Source of the DNA: Pleodorina starrii
Taxonomy: Eukaryota; Chlorophyta; Chlorophyceae; Chlamydomonadales; Volvocaceae
Direction: 5' to 3'
Length of the DNA: 64,000 nucleotides
Assembly: GCA_030267565.1 (NCBI GenBank)
Contig: BRXU01000016.1
Coordinates: 1,940,501-2,004,500 of the forward strand
Position 1 is the first letter of the stretch; each line of letters opens with the position of its first letter. The notes beneath the pieces are model-generated. The model was given only the letters and a program-made list of their open reading frames with translations. It had not been told where the DNA came from and searched no databases. This document shows, one piece after another, positions 19,389-45,546 of this stretch. Both the position numbers and the translations under genes were made by a program.

Positions 19389-22300
19389 CCGGCAACGGCG
19401 TCGCTGCGTCGAATCGCGGCGCCACGAGCAGCGGCGCGCAGCTGCTGGACTTGTTTGGACTGACCCACGGGTCGGAAGCCGAAGGGAGCGCGCCGTCGGG
19501 CTCCAAGTCGCCGATCTCCCGCGCCAGCACGCGCAGCGCCTTCAACCTCTTCCGCCCCGCGCGACGGCCGTCGCCTCCGCCGCCGCAATCGCAGCAGTCA
19601 CAAACGTCGTTGCAGTCACAGCAGCAGCAGCAGCGCGCACCTCAGGGGTTCTTGTCGCCTTCTGACGACGACGGCCGGCCGAGCCGCGAGGCGTCGGGAT
19701 TCGCGGGCTCGGCAGCCAGCGCCACGCGGCGGCTCCGCGGCGAGTCGGCCGCCGCCGACGCGCCGTGGCTGCTTCCGCCGGACGGCGGCTCGCGTCGCTC
19801 GTCCCAGTACGGCGGCGGCGGCGGCGCCAGCCACGGCGGGCCGCCGCGGCGGCGAAAGTCCGCGTTGGACGAGATGAGCGCGCCCTGGCTGCGACCCGTG
19901 GGTTCGGAGCCGCAGACGGATTTCGACACCGAGGAGGCGGCGGCGGCGGCGGCGTCGAACGGGCCGGGCGACGGCGCCGCCGACGCGAGGAGCGCCCTGG
20001 GCGCCGCCGCCGGCGCCTCCGCCGCCTCGGGAGCGACGGAGACGCCGGTGATGGAGACGAGATCGGCGGGGGTCACTGCCGACGGCAGCGGCGACGCCGC
20101 CGATGCCGCCGCCGCCGCCGGCAGTCCGCGGGCGGCGGCGGCGGCGGCGGTGAATGACGCTGGCGTCGTCGGCAATGCACGCTCGCCGAGCCAGCTCCTG
20201 CGCTCTCCGGCGCCGCGAGCCGCCGGCGCCGGCGCAGGCGCCGTCGCCGCGGCGGCGGAGCTGGACAACGGCGGAGACCACCACTCGCTGGTCGAGCGGC
20301 TGGATCCTGATTCCCAGGACGGCCTGCCGTCGGCGGCGCCGCCGCCATCGCCGCCGTCACCGCCGTCTCCGCAACAGCTGCAGCGGCAGCCGTCAATGCG
20401 CCAGCCGCCGCAGCGGCAGCCATCGCTGCTTCTACAGCGCCAGTACTCCAAGCACATGGCCGCCTCCGCCGCCGTCGATGGCGCGTCGTCGTCGTCACCG
20501 CAGCAGCAGCAGCAGGCGCCGTCGTCGCCGTCGCCGCCGTCGCCGTCGCCGTCGTCGCCGCCGCCGCTGCACCGCACCATGTCCTCCATGTCCTCCTGCA
20601 GGCGCACCAGCTCCGTACAGTACGGCGAGCCGACCGGCTTTCGCCCCACCTCCTCCTTCCGCGCCGGCGGCGGCAGCGGCGGCGGCGCCGCCGCCGCCGC
20701 CGGCGGCGGCGCCGGCGGCTCCCCCGTGCTCGCCTCCTCCACCCGCCCCGGCTCCGCCCTAGGGCCTCCGCCCCTCCACCACCTCCGCCCCGGTTCCGCC
20801 CTGGGCCCACAGCCCGAAGCCGGCAACCTGCCGGACCGCGATGACTGCTTGCCCGGATACGCCGCCGAGCCGGCTCCCTCGCTGTTGCAGCGCGGCAACA
20901 GCGGCTTCGGTTACCTCCAACGGATGCCGACCAGCCGCCTCGCGCCCGTCGCCGGCGGCGGCTCGCCGGGCCCCGTGACGGAGTCGCTGCTGGCGGCGGC
21001 GGAGCACACGCCGATGCTGCCGTACGATAGCGGTACGGCGCCGCCGGAGCTGTCGGAGGTGAAGCGCGTGCGCGGGACGGTGTCCTTCACCAACGGCGGC
21101 GCCGCCGCCGCGGAGGCGGCGGCGGCGGCGGCCGACGCCGCCGCCGACGCCTACGGCGACGACGCGCGCACGACGCGCTCCTCCCGAATGGTCGTATCCC
21201 GCGAGGCCAGCGTCACGTCTGGCGGCGGAGGCGGGGGCGGGGGCCAGGTCATGATGCGGACCATGAGGACTGTGGCCCGCAACATCACGGTCAAGCTGGG
21301 GATGGTGCTGGGGGGCAGGGGAGATTTGTTGATGTCGCCCGGCGGGGGCGGCGGCGCATCACACGGCGAGTCGTCGGGATGGGGCGAAGCGGCGGATGCG
21401 GCCGGCGCCGGCGGCGGTGCTGGCGGCGGCGGCGGCGGCGGCGGTGGTGGTTATGGGCGGGAGCCATCTCCGCGGCCTAGCTGCCCCGGTGACGCCACCG
21501 CCATCATCATGCCCAACAACCCGTGGGAGTGGCAGGATCACTACAATGAGAAGGTGGACCTGTGGCAGGTGGGTCTGGGGGGGGGGCGAGGGAGGTGTTG
21601 TATGTGTGTGTGAGGGGTGCGTTGGGCGGAGGCGTGTGACAGGAGGGCGTGTGGGTGCCCGGTGCGTGCGAGTGTCCGCGGGTCTCCACGCCTCTGTACT
21701 GCAGACCGGCAACCCGCTGTCTCCCCTCCAACCCGCGACCCCCCCCTCCGGTCCTCCTTTTCTTAATCCCATTCTCCCCTTTCCTTCTCCACAAAACCCT
21801 CATGACCCCCTTCCCCGCCGTTTCCCTCGGCAGGTGGGCTGCCTGGTGCACGAGATCCTCTGCCTCAGCCTGCCCTTCGAGACGGAAGACAAGCTGCTCG
21901 CCTGCGCCCTCATCCTATGGGCCGACATCGTCTCCTTCCCCGACCACCTCTCCCCCGAGTGCCACGACTTTATGCGCGCCTGTCTCACCAAGAACCCAGC
22001 CGAGCGCCCCTCCGCCGCGGACCTGCTGCACCACCCCTGGATCGTCCGCCACGCCGCCGGCGAGACGCTCAAATCCGTCCGCCAGGGCAGGGAGGAGGAC
22101 GGCCTCGCGGCCGCCTCCCACGCCCGAAAGCTCACAGTCCTGCAGCGAGCCGCATCTGTAGTGGGGCTGGGTTGGGCAGTGGGCGCCGGCGGCGGCGCCG
22201 GAGGCGCCGCCGCCGCCGCCGCCGGAGGCGGCGGCGGCGGCGGCGGCGGCGGCTGGACCAGCCCTCTGTCGTGGCTGCTCCGCCCCTGGAGCTCAAAGGT

Positions 22301-25293: not shown

Positions 25294-28200
25294 ATGTTCT
25301 CTCGGGCTGGAGCGACGCAAGTCCAGCCCCTGGCTGGTGCAGGTAAAGCCCCTTCTTGCAAGCAGCATGTTAAATGGGTCAAACGGCGCTGTTCGTCAAC
25401 ATGTCAGGCGCATTAACGACAGACAAGGGGAAAGCCGTGCGCAGGCCGTGTCGGGAACGCACGCGAGTCTTGTCTTTTGAATACGGGCCTGCACTCGGCG
25501 ATGGATGTGATGCACCGAGAGTTGTCATGGGGCTGACCAGCATGTTTAGGGGAGTGGGACGCCTCAGGGAAACCATACAGAGCCAACGGCAAACGCACAG
25601 TTGACCTGGGCTGTTTTGTCTTGGCCCATGCGCGGTGCTGACTCGTTCACACCTTCCGGGCAGCGCGCGACCCCACGCACCCGGCTGGCTGGGCCGCACC
25701 CATCCCCAACAGGGTGCCGTTACACCTGTGGACATGTTGCAGCAGCCCTTGACAGCCAGCCGCTCCCCGGCGGCTTTTCCCACCCCTTTACTCACCCGCC
25801 TGGCGCTGCCAGTCACTGAGCGCGCGCCTTGCCCGTCGGATCGCACATATACTCGAGCTCATCGGGGCGGCCGGGTCGTGGTGCCCGGGGCGCATTGTCC
25901 ATACCATACATGTGCGCCACTTGTATCACCACCATTTGTATCACCACCACTTGGGTCCATCACATGAATTCCCTTTTGGGCCCTGTGCTGGCCCGACCCA
26001 CATTCGGGGGACCTCTGCCGCATCACTGGGGGGTTTGTCGGCCGCGGGGGGGCCAACCACGCCCGCCGGCACGGATGACCGCCCGCCGGCACGGATGACT
26101 GCCCCCCACGAGCCTGCGCTGTGCCCTCGCCCAGCCGAGCCGAGCCTGCAGACGCACGGTACCTACCCTGCAGGCCCCGCCTCGTCCAAATAGGGCCGCA
26201 AGGCCGACCCTGCCTGTCCCAACCCGGCCCAGCCCAGGCTCCAACCCAGATGGACCATTTCGGGGAAAGGCCTGCCGCCCTGCCCTGCCCTGCCCCTCCC
26301 TGTCTGTCGGGCCGTCTGGCTGTCTGGCTCAGGGGCGGCTGCGCTTCCCCCCCTCACGACCCCCCACCCGCCCCGCCCCGCGCACCATCCAGCCCCCGAC
26401 AACCCGGGGCTGCTCCCAACAACCATCACCCCCGCCCCGCCCCGCCCCGTGCCTGTCCCCGCCCCCTCCTCGTTCGGCACCACCCTCCACCCTCCACCCT
26501 CACCCCCCACCCCCGCAGTGACTCATGTTTATATAAAGGAGCATATCACCCCCCACCCCCATGACGTTCCCAGGGGGCCGGTTGCTGCAACCAGATCCCA
26601 CCTCCCATTGCATCCACGCACAGCGAACACTCCCACCTCCTCAATCCCCACCCTCCTCTCCCACCCCACCCCAACAACGTCCGCAGTGACTCATTGTTAT
26701 GTAAAGAAGCATATCACTCCCTGTCCCACCCTCCTCCCCCACCCCACCCCCCACCACCACCTCCACGCCTCATCACCCCCCGCCCCCCGCAGATGACTTT
26801 TTCGGTCGGCCCGACATGCTGAACAACAGCGTGACGCAGTCCCGCATGCCCACCAAGTGTAACTCGGGGCTGTTGGCGCTCAAGGTCCCCGACCCGCCGC
26901 AGTTTGCCCCCAGCGCCGTGTGCGCCATCTCGGCGGACGGCAAGATTGCGGCGGTGGGCGGCCGCGACATTGAGCTGTTTCTGTGGGACGTGGACACGGG
27001 CGACCTGCTGTCCAAGATCCGCGGACACGATATTTTCTGGGTTGGATCGCACGACAATGCATTTTTCATTACGTGCCAGGAGGACGGGAAGGTGCGGGAG
27101 GCCGAAGGGGGGGGGAGGGGGAGGCCGAGGAGGGGCGAGGAGGGGGAGGGCTGGAGGGGGAGGGGGAGTGGGGGAGAGGGCGGTGCGCGGCGCGGGAAAG
27201 GGGGGGAGGAGAGCGGAGCACAGCCGTCAGGGCGAGAGAAGGCAGAGGGGAGACGTGAGGGGGCTTTTGGAGGTGGGCGGAAGGGCTGGGGAGGCTGGGG
27301 AAGGCGCTTGGGGCGGCGGGGTGGGGCGCGGCGCGGCGTGGAAGGATGCGGGCTGGCATCGTCTTCCCGCGCCGCCGCCTGGCGCCCTTACTCCCCACCT
27401 CTCTCGCCTCTGCGGCGGGACTCGGCTGCCTGGCGGCTGCGCTGCCACTGCCCCTGCCAGAGGACGGCCGACGTGCCCGGAGGCACGCCTGCGGTTTCCC
27501 TCTACCGTCCCCCTCTACCGCCCCCTCCCCGCATGAGCGAAACCATCCCGTCTCCCCCCTTCCCCACCGCCCCTCCCCACCGCCCCGCCCTCCTCCCTCC
27601 TCCGTTCGCTCTGCACTGTTGCCCCCCCCCCTACATACACACACACCTCCCGCCCCTCAGGTGGTGATGTGGGATCGCGCCACCATGCGCTCCACTGTGA
27701 CCCTGGGGGAGGTGCCGGAGGGCATCACCTGCTGCCACATTGCTCAGGAGAACGACTTTGTCATCGTGGGAGGAGCCAAGGTGTGTGTGTGCGTGTATGT
27801 GTATGTGTGTGTGGTGGGGGGAGAGGGGGTAGTGAAGATGTTCCCGGTCGGATACATCACATGGCTCGGTCCGGCTCTCGTCTACACGTGGAGGGCGGGG
27901 CGGGCAGTGCGGGGGACACGGCGGCGGCGGAGGAGGAGGAGGAGCCGCGGAGACGTCGACTGTGAAGGGGCGTGCTATCGTGTTGTGGGTGCGAGGGAAG
28001 GTGCAGGAGCGGGGCAGGGGCACGGGGGCTGGGCGGGGACATGGCGACGGCGGGGGCGGCGGGGCGGGAGAGGAGGCGTCGACGTGCCAGGGGGCGTCCT
28101 GGTGCCTCGGGGGAGCGGAGGGAGTTGCGACAGGGGGTTAGGGTAACGGGGCCCTGGCGGCGGGCGGGGTTTGGTTTTGGAGGCCCGGTGGAGAGGCTGA

Positions 28201-31200
28201 CGGGCGGGAGGGGCCCGGCGGGAAGGAGCGGGAGGGGCCCGGCAGCGGCTGCGGCTGCGGCTGCTCTGGAGGGCAGCTGAGCGGCGGGAGGTGGTGGCTG
28301 GCGGGGGATTCGGGCAAGGAAGCGGCGCCCGGTGCGGGAAGGAGGTGCAGGGGCAGTAGTCCAGGAGGAGGAGGAGGAGGAAGGGGCGATCGATAGGCGG
28401 AACGGTGGCCTCTCAGCGGGTTGCGTTGCCGGGGGTCTGGAAGGGAATCACTGACACTGTACCTAATCGCCCCACACCGCCCCGAACCGCACCGCCCCGC
28501 ACCGCCCCGACCCGCAGGGCAACGTGTACAGTTGGGACACGGACACGGGTACGGTGGCTCACATGTACGAGGCGGGGCACAAGGGTGCCGTACAGTACGC
28601 GCAGGTCTACTCGCTGCCCAGTTACGGCCGCTGCGTGGTGTCGTGTGGGGCCAAGGACCATACCGTGGTGAGTACGGCACACGTAGGGTTTTGTGGGTTT
28701 TGGGGTACCCGGCGGGAAAGAGGGCGGGAGGACGGGCGGGTGGAGGGGTAAGGAGAGCACGAACCGCAGCGGTGTTGGAAAACGGAGGCGCGATGTTGGC
28801 GACGGTTGCGATGTTGTTGGTCCCCCGCTGCCCCCCTTTATTTTCGCTCCTCCGTTTCCGTTTCCGCCGCCCGAGTTTGTGTTTGTCCCACGGCGCCGCA
28901 CGCACGCCACTGCTCTCCTCCTCCCCCCTCGTTCCTTCGCGCTGCGGCCTCTTTCCTTATTACCCCCCTCCCCCTCCCCAGTACCACTGGCTTCTCGGTC
29001 GCCCACGTCCCTTATCGTTCAACACCCCCTCCCTCCCTCCCTCCCTCCAACCCCTTCACTCTCCAAACTTCACTCTTCAAAATTCCCCTCCCCCTCCTCC
29101 CCACCCGCCCTCCCCAAGGTGGTCTGGGACCTGCTAACCGGCGAGCCTCGCGCCCTGATTGAGATCAAGGAGTTGGAGCACGCCAAGAACCTCAAGTACG
29201 AGGTGTCCCGAGACGGCGCGCGCGTGGTGATGTGGTGCACCGACAGCGTGCCCTTCCCCAACCTGGTGGTGGTGGACGTCATGAGCCAGAACAAGATCTC
29301 GGTGTACTGCCACGAGGGGCTGGTGCGCCAGGTGAGGGCGGAGGGGCCGGAGGGCTTTTCCTGGGCATGCTAGCTGGCTTGCTCGCTCGCTCTCCAGAGA
29401 GGTTCATGGCTTTCTTTTTCCTTGCTTTCTGTTGTTTGGCTCGCCCGCTCTGCGGCTCCCTCCTCGCGCGCGCCCGCCCCTGATCGGGCTCGGCCTGATT
29501 CGCCCCCCGGTTCCGTCACGTCGCGCGTCGCGCGCCCCTGCTGCTGATGCTGGTGATGCTGCTGCCGCCCCTGCTGCTGCCCCTGCTGGTGGTGCGCAGG
29601 CTGTCTTCACTCCCAACGGCGACCGCATCATCAGCTCCGGGAACGATAACCGCCTGCAGGTGGGCGGACGGGGGAAGGGGGGATCTGGGGATTGGGGTTA
29701 CTGGGGAAGGGGGGAACTGGGGGAACTGGGGATGGGGGGTTACGAACCATCAACGCTGAGAATGGAGGCCGCTGGTGGGGCGGGGAGTTGGGGATGGGTT
29801 GGAGTGGAGTTTTTTCTCTCATTCTCTCACCGCCCCCTCCCCCCTCCTCCCAAGGACGCCTTCACGCCCGCCCCCTCCCTCTCGCGCCTCCCCCTCGCTG
29901 CCACACACCCCACCCCACCCCACCCCACCCCACACACCCTCCCCGCCTCTCGCTTTCTCTCTTTGTCACCCACCCACCCTCCCTCCCCTCCCTCCCTCCC
30001 CTCCCTCCCGGTGCACAGGTCTGGGACACGTTCAGTCTGGAGAACCTGGTGACCATGAGCGGCCACGAGGGCAGTGTGCTGTGCTGCGCAGTCAACGAGG
30101 CGGCCACGCGGGTGGTCAGTGGCGGGGAGGACTGCACCGTGAGGCTGTGGAGCCTGGACGACGGAAAGCAGCTGCTGGCCTTCCAGGTGAGGAGGGAGGG
30201 ACGGCGAGGAGGGAGGGAGGGAGGGACGGAGGGAGGGAGGGAGGGGGGGAGGGAGGTAAAAAGAAGATACCGCAGCGGAGACGGAGGGAGGGAGGGTGCA
30301 CGGAGGAACAGGGAGGAAACACGGAGGAACAGGGAAGGAGGGAGGGAGGGACGGAGGGACGGAGGGAGGGAGGGAGGGAACACGGAGCACACGTCGGCCA
30401 GGCTTGGAGGGCCCCCCGGGCAGCGCCAGCGTTCATATTATCTCCCCCACAATCCCCCTCCCCACAATCCCCCCACCCACTTTACCGTTCACGGGCTCCG
30501 GCCTATACGTGGATAACCCCCACTCGCCCCCGCACCCCCTGACACCCCCTCACGCGCCCTCAGGCCCAGGACGAGCCCATCAAGCAGGTCCAGTTCTCCA
30601 GCAGCGGTCAGAAGATCCTGTCGTGTGACGTGACGGGCCGCGTGTACGTGTGGTCCATGCACGCCGAGTTCCTGACCAACCTCATGCGCAGATACGCGGA
30701 CAACATATCGGCAGCCGCCATGAGCAACGACATGAAGCTATGCCTGGTGGGTGGGTGGGCGGGTTTTGGGGTGGGGTTTTGGGGGTGGGGGTGGAGTGGG
30801 GTTGCGATGCGGTGAAATGTACGATGCGCGATGCGTGATGCGTTGCGATATCCGACATGCAATATGCGAGACTGTGCGAGGTTGTGCGAGAGATGTGCGC
30901 GAACATGTTGGGTGCGCTGCAACAACGGCTGGCTCTCGTCTGGTGGGTCGGTGCCCTCGTTGGTCCGCAGGTGGGGTGCAACAACGGGCGCGTGATGCTG
31001 TGGGACGTGGAGCGGCGGGAGAGCGTGTGGGAGTACACGCACCACACGGGGCGGGTGGAGGCGGTGGCGTTCAACTCCATGCGCGACATGTGCGCCACGG
31101 CGGGGGCGGACGGACGCATAGTGCTGCTGTTCAGCGACAGCGGAAAGCAGGTGAGCGAGCGAGTGCGCGGGGTGCGGGGTGCGGGTGAGAGGGGGGTGTG

Positions 31201-31820
31201 TGAGGGTGAAAGGATGGGGAAGGAGGAGGCTGCGGACAGGGGGAAAGTTGGAGGGAGGAGGGAGGGGCCGCAAGGAGGGACGGAGGAGGCGGAGGGCGGA
31301 GGTCGTGAAGATTCACCAAATTTCCTCCCCACCATTTCTGGCTGTCCATTCGCGGTCCACTACTTCCCCTCCACATAAGGTACACACATCTCGTCCTCAC
31401 CCTCCACCCTCCCCCTCTACCCCCGCCTCACCCCCCTCCACCTCCCTCCCCCCTCCTCAATCCCCACCCCCCCTGCCAGGCCAACTCCTTCCTGGGTGCC
31501 GAGGAGCCTATGATGACGGTGCAGTTCTCCCCCGATGATGAGCGCATCGCGGGGTGCGCCGCCGACGGCAAGCTCTACCTGTACACCACTGCCGGCTCCA
31601 CACGCAAACCCAAGGCGGTGCTGAGGTCCTCCGTGGCCCGGATATCCAACCACGTCTGGTCGCCCAACTCGAAGCTGGTGGCGGGGGCGTGCTCGGACGG
31701 GACCATGATGGTGGGTGAGGGCGGGGGTGGGTGGGTGAGGGGATGGGTTAGGTGGGTGGGTGGGTGGGGGGGGGATGGGTGGGTGGGGTGGGGGGGGGGG
31801 GATGGGTGGGGGGGGTTGGG

Positions 31821-31871
<51 letters not shown>

Positions 31872-34800
31872 GTGGGTGGGAGTGGGTGGCTGGGTGAGAG
31901 CGGGTGGCTGGGTGGGAGTGGGTGGCTGGGTGGGAGTGGGTGAGGTGGGCGGGTGGTGAAGGACAGGCCGCAGCGTTGGGACAGAGGCGTGGTGGGGAGC
32001 TGCGAAAACCGGGCAAATTGGGCAGCTGGGGGCGTTGGGAGCTCTCGTCGTATCTGGTTCCTCTGCCTTTGCTGCCCGGCTCCCTGGCCCGGCTCCTTGG
32101 CCCTCGTCAGGCTCTCGTCAGGCACCGACCCGTCATTCACCGGGCCGAGCCCGCTCCCCAGCTAGCTCCCCCGTTGCTCCGCTCCCATGTCCCGTGCCCC
32201 GTGTGCCCCATGTGCCCTCCCCCCCCCGTCTGCCGTGATCCTGTGTGTTGTCAGGTGTGGAACGCCAGCTCTGGCGGCATCCACACAGTGCTGGAGGGCG
32301 CTGCGGTGGGTGCCACGTGCTGCTGCTTTGACCTCATTGGCAAGCTGCTGGCGGTCGGCACGGTGCTGGGTGAGAGGAGGGAAAGGGAGGGATGGGGGAG
32401 GGGGAGAGGGAGGGAAGGAGGGAAGGGGGAGGGGGAGAGGGAGGGAAGGAGGGAAGGGGGAGGGGGGGAGGGAGAGGGGAGGAGGAGAGGAGGGACTTGC
32501 AGCGATGCCTCCTCCCGCCTCCTCCCAGCTCCGAAACATGTTGCTGCTTGCGCCCCACCCCTTCGTGGGTAACACCCTTCACCCCGCACACCCCTCCTGC
32601 GGTCACATCTTCTTTGATTACCCGGGCCCCCCCCCCCCAACCCTCCTGCGATAACCCCCTCCTGCGAGCTTCACATTGATCTCACTTCCCCCCTCGCCTC
32701 TCGGGCTCCGGCCTGTCTGTGGATAACCCCCGCCCCCCCCCGCCCCCCCTGCCGCCTGACCCCGGCCCCCCCCCGCCCCCGCCCCACCCCCACCCCCGCC
32801 CCACCCCCACCACACACACGCCCCTATGTAGGCACCACCCTGTTGTACAACCTGGAGACCAGTGAGATGCTGGTGGAGCTCAAGGGCAACGCCAGCCCCG
32901 TCAAGGAGGTGGTCTTCAACCAGGAGACAAGCCAGCTGACAACCATGTGCAGCAGACAGGCCTGCGTGTGGGACGTAGGCTCGGCGACAAAGGTACGGTA
33001 GTTGAGGCGGGTGCGGGTGTGTGTGGGTGTGGGAAGGGAAGCGGAGGGAAGCGGAGGCGCATGTGCATGTGCGTGTGCGTGCTGGACTTTGGCGCGCGGC
33101 CTCGTTGCGCGTTTGGGAGCGTGTGGGTGCTGCGTGTGGGTGCGTGGTGGTGGCATGTCTATGCGGCGCCTTGGCGCCCCGGAGCCCTTACTGCCGGCCT
33201 GCCTGTCTGTCCCTGTTTGGTTGAGTTGTACGAGCCTCCCCACGCCTCTTTCCCCTCGCGCGCACACCTGCCCAACTTACGCGGGGCCGCTTGCCCCGTG
33301 CCCCTCTCCCACCTCCAAACCCCATCTTCTCCGCCCTGACCCGACCCGCTTTCCCTCCCCTCCCCCCCCCCCGGCCTATACGTGGATAACCCCCCGGCCT
33401 ATACGTGGATATCCCCCCCCCACACACACCCGGCTTCCCTCCCCCCTTCCGCCCCCCTTCCCTCCCTTCCCTCCCCTCCCTCTGCCCCAGATCCGCGTGT
33501 TTGACTTTGTCATGGACAAGGCGGGTGACTTTAAGTCCCCCCCGCACCCCTACCGCTGGGCGGTGGCTCACAACTCCACGGTGCTGTTTGACCACGAGAG
33601 CGAGGCGCTGGTGCTGGACATGCTCACCATTGATGACCCGCTGCTGAGATCCTACTACCTGTCGGACGTGCAGGTGGGGGGAAGGGGGCGGGGGAAGGGG
33701 GGGAAAGGGGGGAAAGGTCGGGGGGAGGGCACCACACACCACACACCACACCACCGCGCACGCACGCACGCCCCTCATCGTGCCCCTCCTTTCGTTGTGC
33801 TGCCTATCGCACACCTTTGTGCTTCCCCCACACCCGCTGCCCCTATGCGCAGCCTGTCCTGACTGTTTTTTCTCTGAATTCCCCGCGTCGCTCCGCGCCC
33901 CCCTTTGGTCCGCCGTCCCGTCTCTCGCCCGCCCGCCCTCCCTTCCGGCCCCTCTCAGACCATTGCCAGCGGCTTCAACCACCGCAAGCTGTTGGTGTGG
34001 TCGGCCGCCGGCTCCTCCGCCCCCGACAAGTTCCACACCACCCACGACGCCATCACCTCGACCCACTTCTCCAACGACGACCGACTGGTGGTCATGGGCA
34101 CACAGGTGGGGGCGGGTTGTGTAGGGTGCGGGTGCGGGTGGGTGCGTGCGGCTGCGTGTGGTGGGATGTGTACCGTTTTTGTGCGGTCCCCCCGCACACC
34201 CCCCTCCCTCCCCCGCAACTCCGGCCTAAACGGCGGGCTTAAGCGGAATACGTGGATGACCCCTGCCAGGTCCTCTCGCCCGCCCACCCCACCCCCCGAC
34301 ACCCCGGTCTCCTCCGCGCCTCCGCTCCTCCGCTGCGGTATCATCCTCATTCTTATATACCGTATTATCACCTCTCCCCTCCCTTCGCGCCCCCGCCCCC
34401 GCCCCCGCCCCCGGCTTTCCCCCGCCCCCGGTCCCCCTCTCAGGACGGCAACGTGGTGGTGTACGACGTGGTTCACGGCGAGACCGTTGAGATCATCGTG
34501 GGTCACCAGAACGGCCCCTGCCGCTGCGTCAAGCTGAGTGCTGACAACAAGGAGGTGCTGTCGTGCGGTGCGGACTCCAAGGTGGTTCTGTGGGACTGGC
34601 GGAAGCGCTCCCCCATGAGGATCTACTCGGGGCACTTCATATCCATCGGCTGCTGCGACATATCCACGCAGGCAAGCAGCGGAGGGGAGGGGAGAGGGGA
34701 GGAGGGGGAGGGGGAGGGGGAGGAGCGGGAGGGAAGAGGGTAGATGGCGGGACGGAGGCGAGGTGGTTCGGGGTGAAGCGTGCGAGAGTGGAGGGGGGCT

Positions 34801-37800
34801 GATGAGGGATGATGGGTGCGTGACTCCTCACAAGTGCCGCATCGCTCTCTCGTCCCCTGGTGGTGGTGCTGGTGCCGGTGGTGGTGCTGGTTCCTCCCAC
34901 TTCTGGTCTCCTGGCTCCGCCGCCGCCGCGCTCGAGCCTGTCTACATGCCTGCTCCCTCGCACAGCCGCACACGCCGCACCCGCACCCCCGCACAACCTC
35001 TGCTCCAAGGACGGTGGTGAGACGCTTCCCTCCCTCGCCCGCTCTGCCTCCCTCACTCTTCCTCCCTCGCTCTTCCTCGCTCTTCCTCGCTCGCTCGTCC
35101 TTGCTTGCCTGCCTGCCTGCCCGCACGCGCACAGGGCAACCGCGTGGTGTCGGGCGACAACCACGGCATGATTTGCGTGTGGGAGAAGGACAGCGGCAAC
35201 CCGGTGCAGACGCTGCCGCTGGCCCACTCGAAGGCGGTGCTGTCGGTCACCATCTCGGCGGACGGATCCACAATCGCCTCGGTGGGGGCGGACGACAAGG
35301 CAAGGAGGGGAGGGGGGGCGCGGGGGGCAAGGGGCGCGGGGCAGGGGGACAGGGGGGGTTGTATGCGGTAAGTGCAGCGGTGCGAAGTTGGTACTGGTTG
35401 CAGCCCACCCGGCAGGAGGGGGGGCCGCGGGCAGGTGCGGTGGCAGGGGAGGGGCGGGTGGCGGGGGAGGGGCGGGAGGGTTTCGCGCTCTGTCGCTTGT
35501 GAGATTCAGATTCGCACACAACAGGGGGTGGTGGAGGGCCATGAAAGGAGGGGCCGGGGGTGATGTGCGTCGTTGGCACTGGCGGAAGGAGTGGCCCCTG
35601 GGGGGACCGTAGGGAAGGAGGGAACGGGACGTGCGCCTTTCTTAAACAAAGCAAGGCGCCCTCCTTGTCTGGGCAGGTCGCCCAGGCAAGGTAAGGCAAG
35701 GCCCGGCACGGCTCTCGCCCAAAACCTGTTACCCTGGGCCCGCACTCCCTTCCCCCCTCCACGGCATTGTTCCCTAGCCACGCCTCTGTCCCTCCACCGC
35801 GGTATCTTCTCCTCCATTACCCCCCTCGTGCCTCGCAATCCCATCCCATCCTGCCCCTCCCCCTCCCCCCCTGCCCCTCTCCCCCCTCCCCCCTCCCAAA
35901 TTCACTCTTCAAATCCCCCCTCCCCCTCCCCGCAGGTCTCCATTTGGAATGTGGACATTGGCATTGAGCTGGTGTCCCTGACTGCTGCCATGGAGTCCCA
36001 CCCGCTCTACTGCTCCTTCTCCCCCGACGGAAACAAGCTGGCGGTCACGGAGTCAAACGGCAACGTCATGGTGTGGAACGTGGCGGCGGGATGCCAGTGG
36101 TACATGATATACCAGGTGGGGTTTGGGTGGGGGGAGGGGAAGGACTTGGGGGGGCGGCTGGGAGGGCGTGGCGCGCTGTTGCTGACGGTGTCCGCGTGTC
36201 GTGTCGCGCGTGGGATGAGGTGAGATGAGAAGAGGGGGAGTTGGGAGCTGTGTGTGTGGGGGGGGGTGGGGGCGGGGTTCAGGCGCGCGTGGGGGGAGGG
36301 GCCAGGGCGGAGGGGGAACTGTTGTATGTGCGTGTGTGTGTTCCCCGCCACGCGGCGCTGAAAAACCCCTCCTCCTCCTCCTGAAAAAACCCTTCCTCCT
36401 CGACCTCCCCCGCCCCCAACAGGCCCACAAGGGCAAGGTGACTGGCTGCTCCTGGTCCGCCGACTGCCGCAAGTTCACCACCTGCGGCACCGACAGCGTC
36501 ACCGCCATCTGGGATGCGGAGAGCGGCGCCCCGCTGTTCAAGTTCAATCTCAAGGCGGGGCCGCTCACCTCGTGCTCGGTGTCGCCCTCGGGGCTGTACG
36601 TGGCGGCGGGGTCGACCACGGGTGAGCGGCGGGAGGTGGGGGGAGGGGCAGGAGGGAGGGTGGGGTGTGGGGGGAGGGGGGAGTGGAGAGAGGCAGGGGA
36701 GTGGAGGTATGAAGGAGTGAGGGGGGAGGAGGCGGGCGCGCATGGCGGAGGAGAGACCGGGGTAGGGGAGGCCCCGAGGTCGCGCCCGGTGGAAGGGGGC
36801 GGGCGGGCGGGCGGCCTCCTCCTCCCCATCCCCGCCCGCCCGCCTGTGGGTTACTGCAGCAGCCTGATCCAATGACCGCATCGCACTATCAAACCCCTTC
36901 CCCTCCCCGTCTGCCCTTGCTGTCTTGCTGTCTTGCTACCGTCCCTTACCATCCTCCTCCCCCGCAGCGGCTTCCTCTTTAGTTACCACCCCCCTCCCTC
37001 CCTCCCTCCCTACCACACCCACCCCCCCACCCCCACCCCCCCTGCCCCAGGCACGCTGTCCGTGTCCAACCTGGTTATCGCCGCCCGCAACACCCCCGAG
37101 CCGTCGTTCCTGTTCAACTGGTTGGCCACACACGACCTCAAGGCCTCGCACTTCCTCTACCTCCGCATGCTGGCCATGTACCCCTACCTGCCTAACGTGC
37201 AGGACGCGCAGGTAGGGGGGGTTTGGGGCTGTGGGGTTTGGGGTGTGAGGGGTGGGGTGGGGGCTGGAGATGCGGGCGCGTGTGTGCGCGCTTATGTGTG
37301 TATGGGTGGGGTGGGTGGGGGGCAAAGGATGAACTGGCCTCTCAAAACCACTACCAGCACAACAACTGTAGACAGGGAGCCACCACCACCACCACCACCA
37401 AAACCACAACGGCTACCGCAACTGCCACAACTGCCACAACTGCCACAACTACCTCCACGTGTGAGGTGTGACGCTGGGTCCAACGCGGATTGAATCCCCA
37501 ACCCCCAACCACCACCACCGCCGCAGGGTTGGTCCATTGCGCTCCACGCGCTGTCCCGCGGTAACGCCGAGGTGTCGGGCATTGTCATGGACGCCCTGGC
37601 CAATGACTGTGGCGTGCTGGGCCTTATCTCGGCGGTGCCCTTCTCCATCGCCACCCGCATCAAGTTCCACAACCAGACGGACGAGCCGGGCAGCCTGTTT
37701 GGGGGCGGAGGGGGCGGCGGGGGAGGGGGTGGGGGCGGCGGCGGCGCGCGGCCGACGAGTGCCTGGGCGGGCGGCGAGAGGGGCGACCGCAGCGTGCGGC

Positions 37801-40800
37801 CGCGCACTGCGGCGGTGGGGCGCTCTGCGTCGATGGCTCCCGGGGCGGAGGGCAACAAGTCGATGCGGCGGGCGTCGCTGGCGTTTCTAAACCCCAAGGT
37901 GGGTGGCTGGGTGGGTGGGTGGGTGGGTGGGCAGGCGCGTTGGGGGGCGGGTGGTGTGGAGGCCCGTGGTTTGTCCAACCTTGATTCTGAGGACGAAAAT
38001 GGGATGTGCGTAGGGGTTTTGAGTGCGTGGCTTGAAGTTTTTTTTGTGGTGTGTGAGGGGGCGCCGTTTCGTCAGGGTTTCCCTCCACCTCCCTCCCTCC
38101 CTCCACCTCCCTCCCTCCCTTCCTCTCCCTCCCCCGCCTCTCGTCTCCCTCCCCCGCCCCTCCCCCCCTCCCTCAGGACGACGACGGCCAGTTGCTCCCC
38201 GACATGCGGCAGGGCTCCAACCTGCGCGACGTGTTGGTCCAGAAGTCCAAGGCGTCCTTCAGCCAGCAGCTCAAGAAGGTGGCGGTGGAGATGGTGACGG
38301 AGACTCGCGACACGGACCACCTGGCGCTCATTCAGAACAACTCGGTGGCGCTGGCGCTCAACTCCAAGTCGTCGGAGTGCGTGCAGGTGGGCTGGGGGGG
38401 GGGCTGGGGGTGGGGGTGGGGGGATGGGGGGCAGGGAGGGCTAATAGCTGGGTGGAGTGGGCGGGGGATGGGTGGAGAGGGCGGGCTGGGCGGGCTGGGG
38501 GAGGTTGGGGTTGGGGGGTTGCGTGCGTGGGGAGGGAGAGGGGGGTTACGTGTCTCGCGCTGGCGTACGGGCTCCCAATCAGGCTGCTGTTGCGCCCTGC
38601 TGCTGGGTCTCTCACAGCAGTTGGACGTTTGGCCTTTCGACCCGCGGAGGATCGAGAGACTCTGGCTTTGCGCGAGGGCGACGCCAGGGCGGCGTTGTGC
38701 CGCACGACCTGACGTTGTCGTGTCGTGTCGTGTCGTGTCGTGTCGTGTCGTGTCGTATCGTGTCGCGTCGCGTCGCGCCCCGCTTCGGAACCGTAGCCGA
38801 TCGACGCTCGCGCGCCCCGGTCCCGGTCCCACCTCCCAGCTTCTCCGCTCTTACGGTATTGTGGCCTCTCACCCGCCCTCTCCTGTCCTGCCCTTTCCTG
38901 TCCTGCCCTGCCCTCTCCTGTCCTGCCCTTTCCTGTCCTGCCCTGCCCTCTCCTGTCCTGCCCTTTCCTGTCCTGCCCTGCCCTGTCCTGTCCTTGGTTC
39001 CTGTCCGCCCCCACCGCCCCGCTCAGGCGGTGCTGGACGCCGCGGCAGCCAACAAGGTGAGCTGGAAGGGGGGGGAAGGGAGGGTGGGGTGAAGCGGGGC
39101 GGCTGGGCGGGGTGGTGGTGGGGGTGGTGGGGGTGGTGGTGGTGGTGGTGGTGGTAGGGGTGGGCGTGCTGGCGTGGGCTGGGGTGGATGAAGGCAAGAC
39201 GCCCTCCACACCACTCCACTCCCTCGCCCGCCTGGCCATCCCATCCCACCCCTGGTTCCACCGAATTCCACCTCTCCTCTCCTGTCCGGTCCGGTCCTGT
39301 GCTGTGCGGACGACTGTTGTTGCACTTGACCCCCATCCCCACCCCACCTCCACCTCCCAACTCCACACCGCTCCCCACGCCCCCAACCCCCCACATCCCT
39401 CCGCCCTCTACGGGGAACCCGCCCTCCGACCACCCCCACCCCACCTTTCCCCACCCCACCTTTCCGGGTCCGTTCGCTAACGCCGTCGCCGTTCCTTCGC
39501 TGCGGTATCTTCTTACCCCACATGTCCCGAACCCACCTCCCATTTCCCAACCCAACCTCCCATCCACCCCCCCCCCGCCCCCTGCAGGTCTCCTGGGGCA
39601 GCTATCACGCCATCACCGACATGATGCCCTCCCTGGCGCTGAGGTACCCCATCATGTGCTACCAGTTCCTCGCCCAACTGGACCTCCGCCACCTGGGGGA
39701 CCTGGAGGTGCCGGTGGCGGTGCTAAAGGTGGGGGGGTGTAAAGAGAATTTCGCAGCGGAGAAGGAGACGGCGTTAGCGAACGGACCCGGGGGGGAGGGC
39801 AGGGGGGGAGAGGGGCGGGACACACAACCGGGGGTTGGGTGGAGAAGGGCGGGGCACACAACCGGACGGCCCTGTCCTGTCCCTGCTCCTGTTCTGTCAC
39901 TGCATCGAAAATTGATAGGGCGGCGCGCTGCTGCTGCTGCTGCGGCTGCTGCTGCTGCTGCTGCGCTTCTTCATGCTCTCCTTTTTCTTCATCTTGCCGC
40001 CATTCCTGTCATTGTCCCCATCCTCGCCTCTCCCAAATCAACTTCGCCTCTCCCTCTCCCTCCCCCCTTGCTCCCTGCTCCCCTCCCCTCCCTCCCTCCC
40101 TCCCTCCCTCCCATGTCAGGGCCTGGACCGCTCCGTCATCCGCACGGCGCCCATCTTCACCAACGTCAAGAACCTGTGGCAGGGCCACCTGAAGCTGCAC
40201 GAGGTCAAGTTTGGGCCGCAACCGTACGCGCACGTCAAGGCCTCCATGGTACGACTGCCGTACGCCTGCTCCATCGGCCGCGACTCGCTGCTGCAGACGC
40301 TGGTGGAGAGCGACGTGCCGGTCAAGGTGTACGGCACTCCGACGCTGCGCGCCATCATCAAGCACAAGTGGCGCCTCTACGCGCGGCGCAAGCTGCTGCT
40401 GCGCTCGCTCATCTATGTGGCTTACGTGATGCTGTTTACGGTGACGGGCATTCTGTATTCGATGGAGGACCATGAGCTGGCCACGTCGAAGTACTGGAAG
40501 ACGGGGCGAGGCAAGGCGCACCTGATTATTGACGGCTACATATTCGCGCAGGTCGGTGTGCATGTGTGCGTGTGTGGGCGTGTGCGTGTATGTGTTTGTG
40601 TGTGTATGTGTTTGTGTATGTGTGTGTGTGCGTTTGTGTGGGTGGGGGGTAGGGAAAGGGGGAGAAGGGGAGTGGGCTTGGGGAGGTGGGCGCGATTGGG
40701 GTGGCGAGGGGGATGGCCTTTGGGTTTGTAGGGGCGTCGTTGCGGCAGCCGTCCCGAGCTCGTCACTTCACATCTTTGATCAGTCCGTGTTTTGTTTTGT

Positions 40801-43800
40801 GGATCCGCCCGCGGGCCGTCCGCGGGCGGCGTCCGTCCCTTACCCGTCCGTCCGCTAGTCCCACCTACACCTACACCTACACCTCCGCCTCCCATTCTCC
40901 CACCCACCCCCACCCCAGCTCCGGCCGATACGTGGATAACACCCAATACCGCCTGGTAAAACCCCTTAAAACCTCTTAAAACCCTGAAACCTTAAAAGCC
41001 TCTCTTCTCCCCCTCCCCCTCTCCCCCTCCCTCCCTCGCCCCCCAGACCGCCTGGTACGCCTGGACCGAGCTGACGCAGATGTACGCCATCGGTCTGTCC
41101 ATGTACTTCAAGAGCTACTGGAACACCTTTGACAGCGTCATGATCTGTCTGGTGCTGGTCATTCCGCCGCTGCATGTGGTGGGAGTCAGCGACCGGGAGG
41201 GGGGCGCGCTGGCGCCGCTCATCGCCTTTGCCATGGTCATGGTGGGTCCTGGGGGGTTGGGTCCTGGGGGGGTGGAGTTGGGAGGGTGTGGTGCGGCCTG
41301 CGGCGGGAGATGAGGATGATGGTGGGGGCGGTGGTATGTGTGTGTGGAGGAGGGATGTCGCCAGGGGATATGGGAAAGCGCAGCGCAGCAGCGCTTTGCT
41401 TGGCAGACTGGCAGCCCCGATCCTTCCTCCTCTCCCCCGCACATGCACACTCACACTCACACACACAGACACACAGACACACTCACTCACACACACGCCC
41501 GCGCCCGCGCCCCCCCCCCCACGCGCTGCAGGTTTGGTTCAAGACCCTGTTTTACGGTCTGGCCTTTGAGCCCTTTGGCCCCATCGTGAACATGGTGTTT
41601 CAGATCAGTCGGGCCATCCGTCAGTTCCTGGTGATGTTGCTCATGTGCTGCTGCGCATTCGGAGTGGCGCTCATGGTGCTGTCGCAGTTTGTCAGCCCGG
41701 CAGCTTACCCGGAGCAGTTTTCGAGAGACAACGAGCAGGGTGGGTGGCTGGGAATGGGGGTGGGTGGCTGGGTGGGAGTGGGGATGGGTGGCTGGGTGGG
41801 GGTGGGTGGGTGGGTGGGGGTGGCTGGCTGGGTGGGGGTGGCTGGCTGGGTGGGCACTGGGTGGTGGGTGGTGGGATTTGGGGGAGAGGGGTACTGGGCG
41901 AGGGCTACTTTTGGCGCGCGCGTGCACCGGCGCGGCGGGAGAAGGATGAGGAGGTGTGCCGCCACCGGCAATCGCTCCCATGTCCCCCACCCGCGCTGCT
42001 CCCCCCCCCCGCCAGCTTTCCCATCTGCCCGCGCTCCCCACCCACCGTCCTTCCCCCCCTTCCTCCCTTCCTCCCTCTCTCCCTGGACTCCATGAGTTAT
42101 CTGGGGAGGGGCTTGGTCTCTGCAACCAGTACCAACACGCATCGCACTCCCTCCCTCCCTCCCTCCCCCTCCTTCCCTCCCGCCGTCCCCGCCGCTCTCA
42201 CACACCCACACCCCCAGACTTTGGCCGCACGCTGTTTACCATGTGGCGCGCCGTGCTGGGCCAGTTCGACGCCAGCTGGGTGTGGGGCAGCGCCTGGCAG
42301 GAGCTGAGCATCCTGTTCTTCTCCGCCTTCATGGCCGCGGTGCAGATCCTGCTGCTCAACATGCTCATTGCGCTCATGAGGGAGGTCTACAACCGGGTCA
42401 AGAACACGGAGGAGGACGTGTTCCTTAAGGTACGGTGCTCGCTGCTGCTGGTGGTGGTGGTGGTGGCGAGGATGATGGGGCAGCTGCTTCCGCTCGCTGC
42501 TGCGGCTGCTGCATACCTCGCAGCTCGTAGCGCTCGTGCCCTCTCCCCCACTAGTGGGCTGCTGCTGCTGCTACGGCTGCTGCTGCTACGGCTGCCAACA
42601 CAAGCTGCCGCTGATGGCGCCACCATGCTTGTCCGCGCTGCCGTGTCGTGTCGTGTCGTGTCGCGCCTCGCCTCACCTCACCTCACCTCACCTCACCTCA
42701 CCTCACCTCACCTCACCTCACCTCACCTCACCTCACCTCACCTCACCTCACCTCACCTCACCTCACCTCACCTCACCTCACCTCACCTCACCTCACCTCA
42801 CCTCACCTCACCTCACCTCACCTCACCTCACCTCACCTCACCTCACCTCACCTCACCTCACCTCACCTCACCTCACCTCACCTCACACGTGTCTCGTCTG
42901 CTGTTCGTCTGCTGCTCGTCTGCTGCTGCTGGTGCCGCCCCTCAGGGTCGCGCCACTCTGATTGTGGAGGTTGAGACGCTGATGGCTCGCAAGCAGCTGG
43001 AGCGATACGCCAACATGCCGCCCTATGTGCACCTGCTCACGCCCGTCAAGCGCAACGACGTGCGAGACCGGTCGGGGGTGGAGGCGCGGCTGGAGAAGAT
43101 GGAGCAGATGCTCATGTGGGTGGGGGGAGGTCGGGTGGGGTGCTGATCCCCTGCCGGGTCGGGTCGGGCCGGGTCGGGTCGGGCGCTTGGCGGCGGGGGG
43201 GCGCGGGGGCGCCGGGGAGGCGTGTCGGCTTCGCGCGCAGTTGCGGTATCGGGGCGCGGAGGCCACTCGGAAGGCCACTTGGTGCACACCGGGAGATTGC
43301 GGCGGGAGATTGCGCCCTGCCCTGCCGCGCAGCGCAGCGCACCCGCCTTTACCCTCGACTTGCATGTTTCATCCCGCTGCTGCGCCTATCCGGGGAATGA
43401 GCTCCTCCGTGCTACTCGAGCACAACAGGACAACAGCAAACCAACCGCCTGCCTCGCGGTCGTCACCCATGCCACTCGATGCCACTCGCGCGCACTCCCA
43501 ACCCGCCTGAACCTCCCAGGTCCCAACCCGCCCCGCGGCTCGGCCCTGGGGGCCCTCCTGGCCCTTTGTCAGCTGGCCACCATGTTTGGCCTGTTTGTCA
43601 TACTTCTAATCATGTTTTTAACCCACCGCCTTGTCCGTCTTCCTCCGCCCAGAAGGCCTCTCGCCTCCATCTCATCACGCGCTGCGGTTCGTTTTCCCTC
43701 TCTCTCCCTCTTTCTCTCTCCGTCTCTGTTTGCAGGAAGCTGCAGGACGCGTTGGAGCAGGGCCTGGCGGGTCCGCGCGGCGTGCCGATGGGCGGGATGG

Positions 43801-44145
43801 GCCCCGGCGGCGGACCCGTGGGTCACCTGACCGCCGGCGACGGCCACGGCGGCGACGGCTCCAACATCAACACCTCGGCGCTGACCCAGGAGCAGCTCAA
43901 CCTGATCCAGATGCAGGCGGGCAAGCTCAAGGAGATGGAGGACCAGTTCCCCGCGGTCATACGGCAACTGGACCGGGTGCAGCGCTCCGTCAACAACCAG
44001 GTGCCGTAGCGGCCGCGTGGGCGTGGGAGTACCGTGTGTGGGGGACGTACCTTATGGGGGCCAGCGGAGGGGAGGGGAGGGGCCTTCGCGTCGCGCCCGT
44101 GCGCGTGTGTGTGCGCGCGTGTTTGGTTTTGTTTTGTGTGTGTTT

Positions 44146-44201
<56 letters not shown>

Positions 44202-44576
44202 CCTGTCCCTGTCCGTCTGCCTGTCTCGCTCTTTCTGTCTTCCAGTGTTTTTCGGGGCCTTCCTCGGTCGTGTGCGAGATAAACCCCTTTCGCGGTGCTC
44301 CCGCCTTTCTTTCTCTGTGTCTCTCTCCCTCTCTCCTCCCTCTCTCTCTTTCTTCCTCTCATTGTCCGCTGCACTGTGCGCTGCACCGTACAGGAGCTGC
44401 GGCTGGAGGGCGTTGTGACGGTGCTCCGCGACATTGAGAACCTGCTCCGGAACCAGCAGCCGGTGGTGATCCACCAGGAGAACCGACCCATGCCCCGCCG
44501 CGGCAACATCCTGACGGAGGCGGAGCTGGAGGCGGAGGTCAAGCGACTGCTGGGCAAGGGGGACGAGAAGCTGTGA
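25294..44576 (+). CDS. WD40-repeat / TRP-like cation channel fusion protein
   Basis: Thirty exons, all joins in frame, about 1869 aa: 25294-25342, 26793-27091, 27661-27780, 28518-28667, 29119-29331, 29600-29659, 30019-30186, 30564-30746, 30971-31150, 31480-31710, 32255-32369, 32832-32992, 33491-33673, 33959-34105, 34444-34671, 35135-35299, 35936-36115, 36423-36621, 37051-37211, 37527-37898, 38177-38386, 39027-39056, 39588-39728, 40120-40551, 41047-41241, 41532-41739, 42218-42429, 42946-43115, 43736-44000, 44394-44576. Residues from about 17 to 1060 hold about 19 WD40-type repeats (LFLWDVDTG, NVYSWDTDTG, VMLWDVERRES, VVLWDWRKR, VMVWNVAAG). A Gly-run linker follows. The channel starts with a TRP-style pre-S1 (AIIKHKWRLYARRKLLLRS), S1 near 1407-1429, S3, S4-S5, a pore loop (FGRTLFTMWRAVLGQFD) and S6 (LLLNMLIALMREVYNRV), then a charged coiled-coil tail. 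Predicted membrane cation channel with a cytosolic propeller array; ciliary or vacuolar location is unknown. Confidence 0.9.
26513..26722 (+). repeat. Duplicated intronic segment with TATA-like core
   Basis: Two near copies, cgcagtgactcatg followed by tttatataaaggagcatatc (from about 26514), and cgcagtgactcattgttatg followed by taaagaagcatatcac (from about 26692), lie about 178 bp apart in intron 1 of the WD40-channel gene, just before exon 2. Both contain TGACTCA; only the first keeps TATATAAA. Confidence 0.65.
30482..30523 (+). repeat. Dispersed repeat family A, WD40-channel intron copy
   Basis: Long form, accgttcacgggctccggcc then tatacgtggataaccccc, sense to the gene and about 45 bp before the exon 8 acceptor. 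Other sense copies in this gene: 32704-32730 (variant gtctgtggataacccc), 34222-34263 (interrupted), and 40918-40942. Confidence 0.85.
31820..31870 (+). repeat. (CTGG)n microsatellite
   Basis: About twelve uninterrupted copies of the tetramer lie in the intron after exon 10 of the WD40-channel gene, followed by related GGGT-rich repeats. Confidence 0.85.
33372..33412 (+). repeat. Dispersed repeat family A, tandem double copy
   Basis: Two head-to-tail cores, cggcctatacgtggataacc and cggcctatacgtggatatcc, about 80 bp before the exon 13 acceptor of the WD40-channel gene. Confidence 0.85.
38716..38755 (+). repeat. (TGTCG)8 microsatellite
   Basis: Eight exact pentamers, followed by degenerate TATCG/CGTCG units, sit in the intron after exon 21. 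A second array of TCCTG/CCCTG units occupies about 38881-38995 in the same intron. Confidence 0.85.
39466..39788. repeat. Inverted repeats flanking exon 23 of the WD40-channel gene
   Basis: The 22-mer at 39466-39487 (GGGTCCGTTCGCTAACGCCG then TC) is the exact reverse complement of 39767-39788. Weaker similarity continues inward through TTCGCTGCGGTATCTTCTT on one side and its reversed relative on the other. Exon 23 (39588-39728) lies between the arms. Confidence 0.85.
42671..42885 (+). repeat. (CCTCA)43 satellite tract
   Basis: Forty-three exact tandem CCTCA pentamers (215 bp) with no interruption lie in the intron after exon 27 of the WD40-channel gene. A short run of GTGTC units precedes it at about 42643-42663. 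On the plus strand it is pyrimidine-biased and ends about 60 bp before the acceptor. Confidence 0.97.
44147..44198 (+). repeat. (CT)n dinucleotide tract
   Basis: An uninterrupted CT run of about 52 bp in the last intron of the WD40-channel gene, followed by CCCTGT and CTCTC-rich sequence up to the acceptor at 44393. Confidence 0.9.
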
Positions 44577-45541: not shown

Positions 45542-45546
45542 TGTAA
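45542..45546 (+). terminator. Candidate TGTAA poly(A) signal of the WD40-channel gene
   Basis: First plus-strand TGTAA noticed after the stop at 44576, about 965 nt downstream, nearly the same spacing as at NDUFA9. Candidate only. Confidence 0.35.

Follow-up and report, generated by a model that had tools for sequence, protein, structure and literature searches.

A window of 64,000 nucleotides from the genome of the green alga Pleodorina starrii (C16:1940501-2004500) contains a gene that joins an array of WD40 repeats to a TRPV-like ion channel. The gene occupies positions 25294-44576 of the window on the + strand. It is one gene read in one frame, its architecture is kept in orthologues, and its channel half is TRPV-like in sequence and in predicted fold. 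We propose, with a probability of about 0.6, that it encodes a TRPV-like cation-channel subunit whose propellers would act as a scaffold, docking the channel onto a partner complex and linking that complex to the gate.

Gene structure and order of the parts

The exons were read from splice sites and then corrected against orthologues, which gave 30 exons in a single open, phase-consistent frame. Start, end and exon count reproduce the 30-exon model proposed earlier from the letters alone (hereafter the sequence-only reading). The coding sequence of 5610 nt including the stop encodes 1869 residues, from the ATG at 25294 to the stop at 44574-44576. There are 27 GT-AG and 2 GC-AG introns, the GC donors lying at 34672 and 35300. 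A model of 29 exons and 1857 residues was dropped since the orthologues revealed an omitted 30-nt exon (39027-39056) and a wrong joint between exons 28 and 29. The Pfam scans, the single-sequence search against solved channels and the first family search used as query a model 12 residues shorter than the final one. From N to C terminus, the protein consists of WD40 blades, helices with a probable cryptic ankyrin repeat, pre-S1, TRPV-like S1-S6 with pore, TRP helix and a coiled-coil-like tail, encoded as follows.

25294..25342, +: exon 1, residues 1-16 with the start ATG; residues MFSRAGATQVQPLAGA are identical in the Chlamydomonas (C.) reinhardtii protein P0002
26793..37070, +: exons 2-18 and start of exon 19, about 23 predicted WD40 blades, residues 45-1017
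26793-27091, 27661-27780, 28518-28667, 29119-29331, 29600-29659, 30019-30186, +: WD40 exons, first part
30564-30746, 30971-31150, 31480-31710, 32255-32369, 32832-32992, 33491-33673, +: WD40 exons, second part
33959-34105, 34444-34671, 35135-35299, 35936-36115, 36423-36621, 37051-37211 (part), +: WD40 exons, third part
37071..37604, +: parts of exons 19-20 (37051-37211, 37527-37898), helical segment with a probable cryptic ankyrin repeat at residues about 1053-1090 (profile against PDB, fold model)
37605..38386, +: exons 20-21 (37527-37898 in part, 38177-38386), poly-Gly-bearing low-complexity linker, followed by the beginning of the helical pre-S1 domain
39027..39056, +: exon 22, in-frame 30-nt micro-exon AVLDAAAANK, residues identical in P0001, P0003 and P0004
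39588..40551, +: exons 23-24 (39588-39728, 40120-40551), pre-S1 with beta strands, S1, start of S2 (conservation, fold model)
41047..42429, +: exons 25-27 (41047-41241, 41532-41739, 42218-42429), rest of S2, S3-S5, pore, S6 and start of the TRP helix (PF00520, hydropathy, TRPV profile match)
42259..42270, +: GQFD at the selectivity-filter position (residues 1608-1611), opposite GLGD in the TRPV3 alignment
42946..43115, +: exon 28, end of the TRP helix, C-terminal strand PPYVHLL (strand 669-675 of the fragment model) and tail start (conservation)
43736..44576, +: exons 29-30 (43736-44000, 44394-44576), tail, coiled-coil-like stretch 1775-1835 (heptad pattern against shuffles), stop
45542..45546, +: TGTAA, candidate poly(A) signal, 966 nt 3′ of the stop

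We take TGTAA to be the usual volvocine poly(A) signal. Several introns hold repeat arrays: intron 27 has about 44 copies of CCTCA (42666-42886, 99% matching), and further arrays lie at 31710-31956 (GGTG), 38875-38995 and 41738-41871.

The propeller array

The Pfam scan matched PF00400 with an E-value of 6.8e-78 in 14 stretches. The predicted fold of the N-terminal protein of Volvox (V.) reticuliferus, 97% identical, has 89 strands, which we grouped by hand into 23 blades; the model suggests that about 23 WD40 blades probably form three propellers, and the last of these (residues 724-1017) is predicted as a closed seven-blade ring. PF00400 repeats and closed propellers both identify a WD40 repeat protein. 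The sequence-only reading had described about 19 repeats making two or three propellers on a TRP-like channel: array and propellers stand, but the fold model raises the count to 23 blades.

The channel module

PF00520 Ion_trans was matched with an E-value of 7.5e-16 (58.5 bits, cut-off 25), and PKD_channel slightly below its cut-off (21.2 versus 22.4 bits). Together with the fold model, this delineates the six transmembrane helices S1-S6 and pore loop of the TRP superfamily. A TRP helix directly follows S6: the match to the TRPV3 profile continues through S6 into the post-S6 helix, and the fragment model has a single helix, 598-654, at this place. The S6 motif LLNMLIALM, like the post-S6 helix, is largely retained across the aligned rows. 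S2 lies below the hydropathy threshold of 1.5; peaks above it also occur in the WD40 part (567-585) and the ankyrin-like part (1083-1101), neither of which is a membrane helix in the models. With PF00400 and PF00520 both matched, the proposed fusion of a WD40 array to a pre-S1/S1-S6/pore module with TRP-like S6 is borne out. The linker region (91-216 of the fragment model) has a low predicted local distance difference test (pLDDT) score. Heptad patterns were examined in three stretches of the tail, and were reached by 0 of 5000 shuffles for 1775-1835, 2 of 5000 for 1780-1840 and 140 of 5000 for 1703-1732.

The closest solved channels by sequence and fold are TRPVs, and the best matches of the channel half are animal TRPV and the insect channels Inactive and Nanchung; in the single-sequence search, TRPM2 chanzyme scored 36.9 to 37.2 bits, near TRPV1 at 38.4 bits. 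TRPVs carry a six-repeat ankyrin domain and no WD40 repeats, whereas the window protein has a WD40 array and one probable cryptic repeat. Because the six-repeat N-terminal ankyrin domain is absent, we call the channel TRPV-like and do not class it as a TRPV.

A probable ankyrin remnant

The propellers are followed by NVQDAQGWSIALHALSRGNAEV, and residues 1018-1087 are helical in the fold model. No Pfam ankyrin family scored above cut-off in the window protein, the best being Ank_4 (E 0.097, 13.5 versus 22.7 bits). A profile (A4) was built from this segment of seven relatives, the window sequence being left out, and searched against PDB sequences. It found 46 sequences at E ≤5, led by four of KANK2 (E 9.4e-5 to 7.6e-4); 28 of the 46 are ankyrin, KANK, ANK or DARPin by displayed name, 16 more presumably hold ankyrin repeats, and two (5l0l, 3mkq) are unnamed or other. 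When the seven members were scanned singly, Ank_4 and Ank_2 were each matched weakly in three, Ank_5 in two (best E 2.9e-4), and Ank_3 and Ank in one each; the first member gave no match, and an unrelated family appeared in one member at 0.003. Only one repeat is claimed because a search with the part that follows the linker (A5) gave no PDB match at E ≤5. These data point to one probable cryptic ankyrin repeat, not six, between the propellers and the membrane. When the folds were compared, the helices that precede pre-S1 (fragment from 228) superposed on TRPV1 starting at 286, presumably the end of its ankyrin domain and the linker. The idea that WD40 propellers simply replace ankyrin repeats holds for the propellers but probably not as a plain swap, since the A4 profile finds ankyrin proteins in PDB and a remnant repeat has probably been kept.

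Orthologues carry the same fusion

The family search gave 13 proteins, namely 12 of the WD40-channel family and one TRPV5-like channel of Mya. Propellers and channel are both present in 10 of the 12 (P0001-P0010, of which P0007 starts inside the propellers and P0010 belongs to a second clade, B, described below); no complete channel is present in P0011, and P0012 breaks off between the ankyrin-like part and the channel. The C. reinhardtii orthologue CHLRE_10g434600v5 (P0002; "hypothetical" or "Ion transport domain-containing protein") has the same domain order and is 87.7% identical to the window protein over 1873 columns, at full length; it differs most in the linker and in S5-pore-S6. Identities to the window protein are 85.9% for Astrephomene, 84.1% for Edaphochlamys, 79.3% for Gonium, 51.6% for Chlamydomonas sp. 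UWO241 and 46.2% for Dunaliella tertiolecta, and the relatives in Gonium, Astrephomene, Edaphochlamys, Dunaliella, Sanguina and Chlamydomonas sp. UWO241 are colinear with it. The nearest named protein is the partial V. reticuliferus P0012 (97% over 1114 columns). P0005, a transcript-derived open reading frame (ORF) from MMETSP that is marked complete, contains both halves (59.2% identity over 1927 columns), and the junction exons hold phase and match the orthologues. As CHLRE_10g434600v5 matches over the whole length and P0005 carries both halves, a fused WD40-channel product, not a joining artefact, is well supported by these comparisons.

TGTAA occurs three times inside the gene body, at 26700, 26858 and 39738, the last in the intron after exon 23 and within the interval 37211-40120 where a split into separate transcripts would have to fall. 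Three copies in 19 kb are, by estimate, about what base composition predicts; a shorter isoform ending at 39738 is possible from the sequence. Three family searches returned no fusion from a protein named as ciliate or oomycete, a weak negative given that most proteins are unnamed and that the search was word-based, with length limits and limited candidates. A scan of viral contigs gave no relative.

A second clade and the age of the fusion

The genome of 136 Mb in 95 contigs was searched with the channel part. The 11 matches comprise five exons of the window gene, five on C13 and one on C3, and no second close copy of the window gene was seen in this search. The C13 matches mark a member of clade B at about C13:2577284-2595134, where exons of both the WD40 and channel parts are present. 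A search with Edaphochlamys P0010 returned 12 proteins, eight of clade B (2142-2793 residues, P0010 included) and four of the clade of the window gene, A. Proteins of clade B, such as V. carteri VOLCADRAFT_88109 (P0016), have the same WD40-then-channel order, but their channel is only about 30-36% identical to that of the window gene. In a channel tree of 25 rows, midpoint-rooted for drawing only, clade A (11 rows), clade B (8) and the outside rows (6) were each split off by one branch with support of 99/98 or more. The fusion probably predates the split of the two clades because the window protein and P0010 align in the same order across propellers and channel.

In a further search with an alignment (A3), the profile kept the WD40 part of its first row, so most of the best 120 of 164 matches were other WD40 proteins; algal relatives and one metagenome protein, P0058 (1382 residues), were retained. 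P0058 has N-side WD40 and an Ion_trans channel (28% identity over 348 columns) and is drawn beside the algal rows on a long branch, but it has only one PF00400 stretch and no colinear propeller match. It may reflect a WD40-channel pairing of wider or independent origin outside green algae.

The C3 match belongs to a third TRP-like channel (C3:2051078-2054266), whose S6/TRP-helix exon is 43% identical to that of the window gene; no WD40 match to three queries at E 1e-5 was found in about 24 kb upstream of it. Dense PF00520 runs at C59:147703-180033 and C3:149387-160196 are perhaps large multi-domain channels.

Conservation along the protein

Conservation was compared among four near volvocine orthologues (P0001-P0004, the Gonium model lacking part of the ankyrin-like segment) and three far relatives (P0005, P0008, P0009). 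The most conserved parts are the propellers (91-95% near, 50-66% far), pre-S1 (95-96% near, 66-80% far) and the TRP helix with the C-terminal strand (residues 1657-1700, 93-98% near; TRP helix 59-82% far). Values are lower for S1-S4 (76-83% near, 39-50% far), S5-pore-S6 (71-83% near, 39-46% far), the tail (72-88% near) and the linker (residues 1113-1235, 69-75% near). The pattern suggests that the would-be partner-binding parts and the parts adjoining the gate are conserved, but not the ankyrin-like part between them.

Neighbouring features

Upstream of the gene, on the + strand, lie pieces of a PF00069 protein kinase, below cut-off at 18346-18591 and above it at 21834-22043. Downstream, on the - strand, a TPR repeat was found at 49979-50059 and a FAD-linked oxidase C-terminal domain at 53523-53666. 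A tRNA-Arg of 89 nt (anticodon cct) lies at 19939-20027 on the - strand.

Discussion

In the mechanism that we favor, four subunits would surround one pore, and the propellers would hold the channel at a particular complex by binding one or more cytosolic partners. When the propellers move or bind, the ankyrin remnant and pre-S1 would relay this to the TRP helix, and a pore for cations, possibly Ca2+, would open. The sequence-only reading had suggested an unusual sensor or tethering to cilia or transport vesicles; cilia as the location are a guess. Several observations weigh against this proposal. The ankyrin-like link is less conserved than the propellers (73-85% near; 43-57% versus 50-66% far), and the high conservation of the propellers, read with no other WD40 or TRP protein as yardstick, may be the ordinary constraint of the WD40 fold. 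The A4 E-values sum several target repeats, the best single stretch of the top hit having an independent E of only 0.53. For the channel half, the fold was modelled from 17 sequences with modest confidence (mean pLDDT 64). Finally, a preference for Ca2+ is not supported for clade A, as its filter residue varies: the acid D1611 is found in four of the ten clade-A rows read (window, P0002, P0004, P0006), the rest having S, N or Q, and D or E stands at this position in six of the eight clade-B rows read.

Other readings of the same protein were considered. That gene modelling merged an adjoining WD40 gene and TRP channel gene in every species is very improbable: the TGTAA at 39738, P0012 (marked partial) and P0011 speak for such a merger, but the complete ORF P0005 has both halves, the junction exons are phase-true and matched by orthologues, and clade B shows the same order, in P. 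starrii too. These comparisons also speak against the separate transcripts that the sequence-only reading had named as the alternative to a WD40-TRP fusion. The protein might instead be mainly a membrane-seated scaffold whose pore conducts weakly or not at all, or might serve only as a regulatory subunit alongside another TRP. In favor of this, few ordered parts are less conserved in the four orthologues than S5-pore-S6 (71-83%), and D, S, N and Q all occur at the filter position in clade A; the retained S6 motif and post-S6 helix and a PF00520 score well above cut-off speak against it, and we regard it as unlikely.

A less remote, though still doubtful, explanation is that the propellers only bring the channel to the flagellum or anchor it there (for instance at transport trains, transition zone or axoneme) and that the channel part gates alone. 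Where the organism is named, these proteins come from flagellated algae, volvocine or related; such algae, however, carry many non-flagellar genes, so that this distribution does not discriminate, and no proteome listing naming the protein was met with in the literature surveyed. Chlamydomonas TRP11, PKD2 and ADF1/TRP15 are reported in or near flagella (PMC8318260, PMC5068960). A bolder form of the scaffold proposal, which we regard as doubtful, is that the chlamydomonad lineage rebuilt a TRPV-type channel by setting about 23 blades before a shrunken ankyrin domain; up to twelve propellers per four-subunit channel, opened by pull or binding, would then define a separate scaffold-gated TRP class, possibly flagellar.

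Among described algal channels, C. reinhardtii TRP1 (Cre10.g452950) has four ankyrin repeats (PMC6744473; gene number from PMC8318260); "WD40" occurs 0 times in PMC6744473, and TRP1 is likened to the window channel by description, not by sequence. ADF1, or TRP15, is the deflagellation channel, and the WD40 protein in PMC5068960 is FAP16, a different gene; ADF1 (Cre09.g396142 or Cre09.g397142) is set apart from CHLRE_10g434600 by gene number only. TRP5 has been suggested at the contractile vacuole (PMC8318260), a location also considered for the window channel. CHLRE_10g434600 is absent from the accessible part of the C. reinhardtii TRP table in that paper, which says that an Arias-Darraz 2015 paper lists 21 C. 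reinhardtii TRP candidates. Related literature includes PMC11085791 (diatom TRPs), PMC11252407 and PMC13358043. We found no functional study of CHLRE_10g434600v5: a search by gene number was empty, and the string "g434600" gave only wheat papers by title. No description of a WD40-TRP channel was found in the titles and abstract starts of the matches listed, and an earlier C. reinhardtii TRP list may mention this gene. As far as seen, the sequences are known as "hypothetical" or "Ion transport domain-containing", and the architecture and ankyrin remnant are undescribed.

We conclude that the gene encodes a real, conserved and apparently unstudied variant of TRP channel architecture, whose propellers, we infer, would couple the channel to a scaffold. 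The usual classification of TRP channels follows their cytosolic ends, and an end of this type, apparently undescribed, has been retained in two paralogous clades. It could reveal which cytosolic part a TRP channel needs to couple to its gate. In C. reinhardtii genes are routinely removed and tagged, so the function of the orthologue is open to genetics, and the family adds an apparently unstudied candidate for algal Ca2+ signalling.
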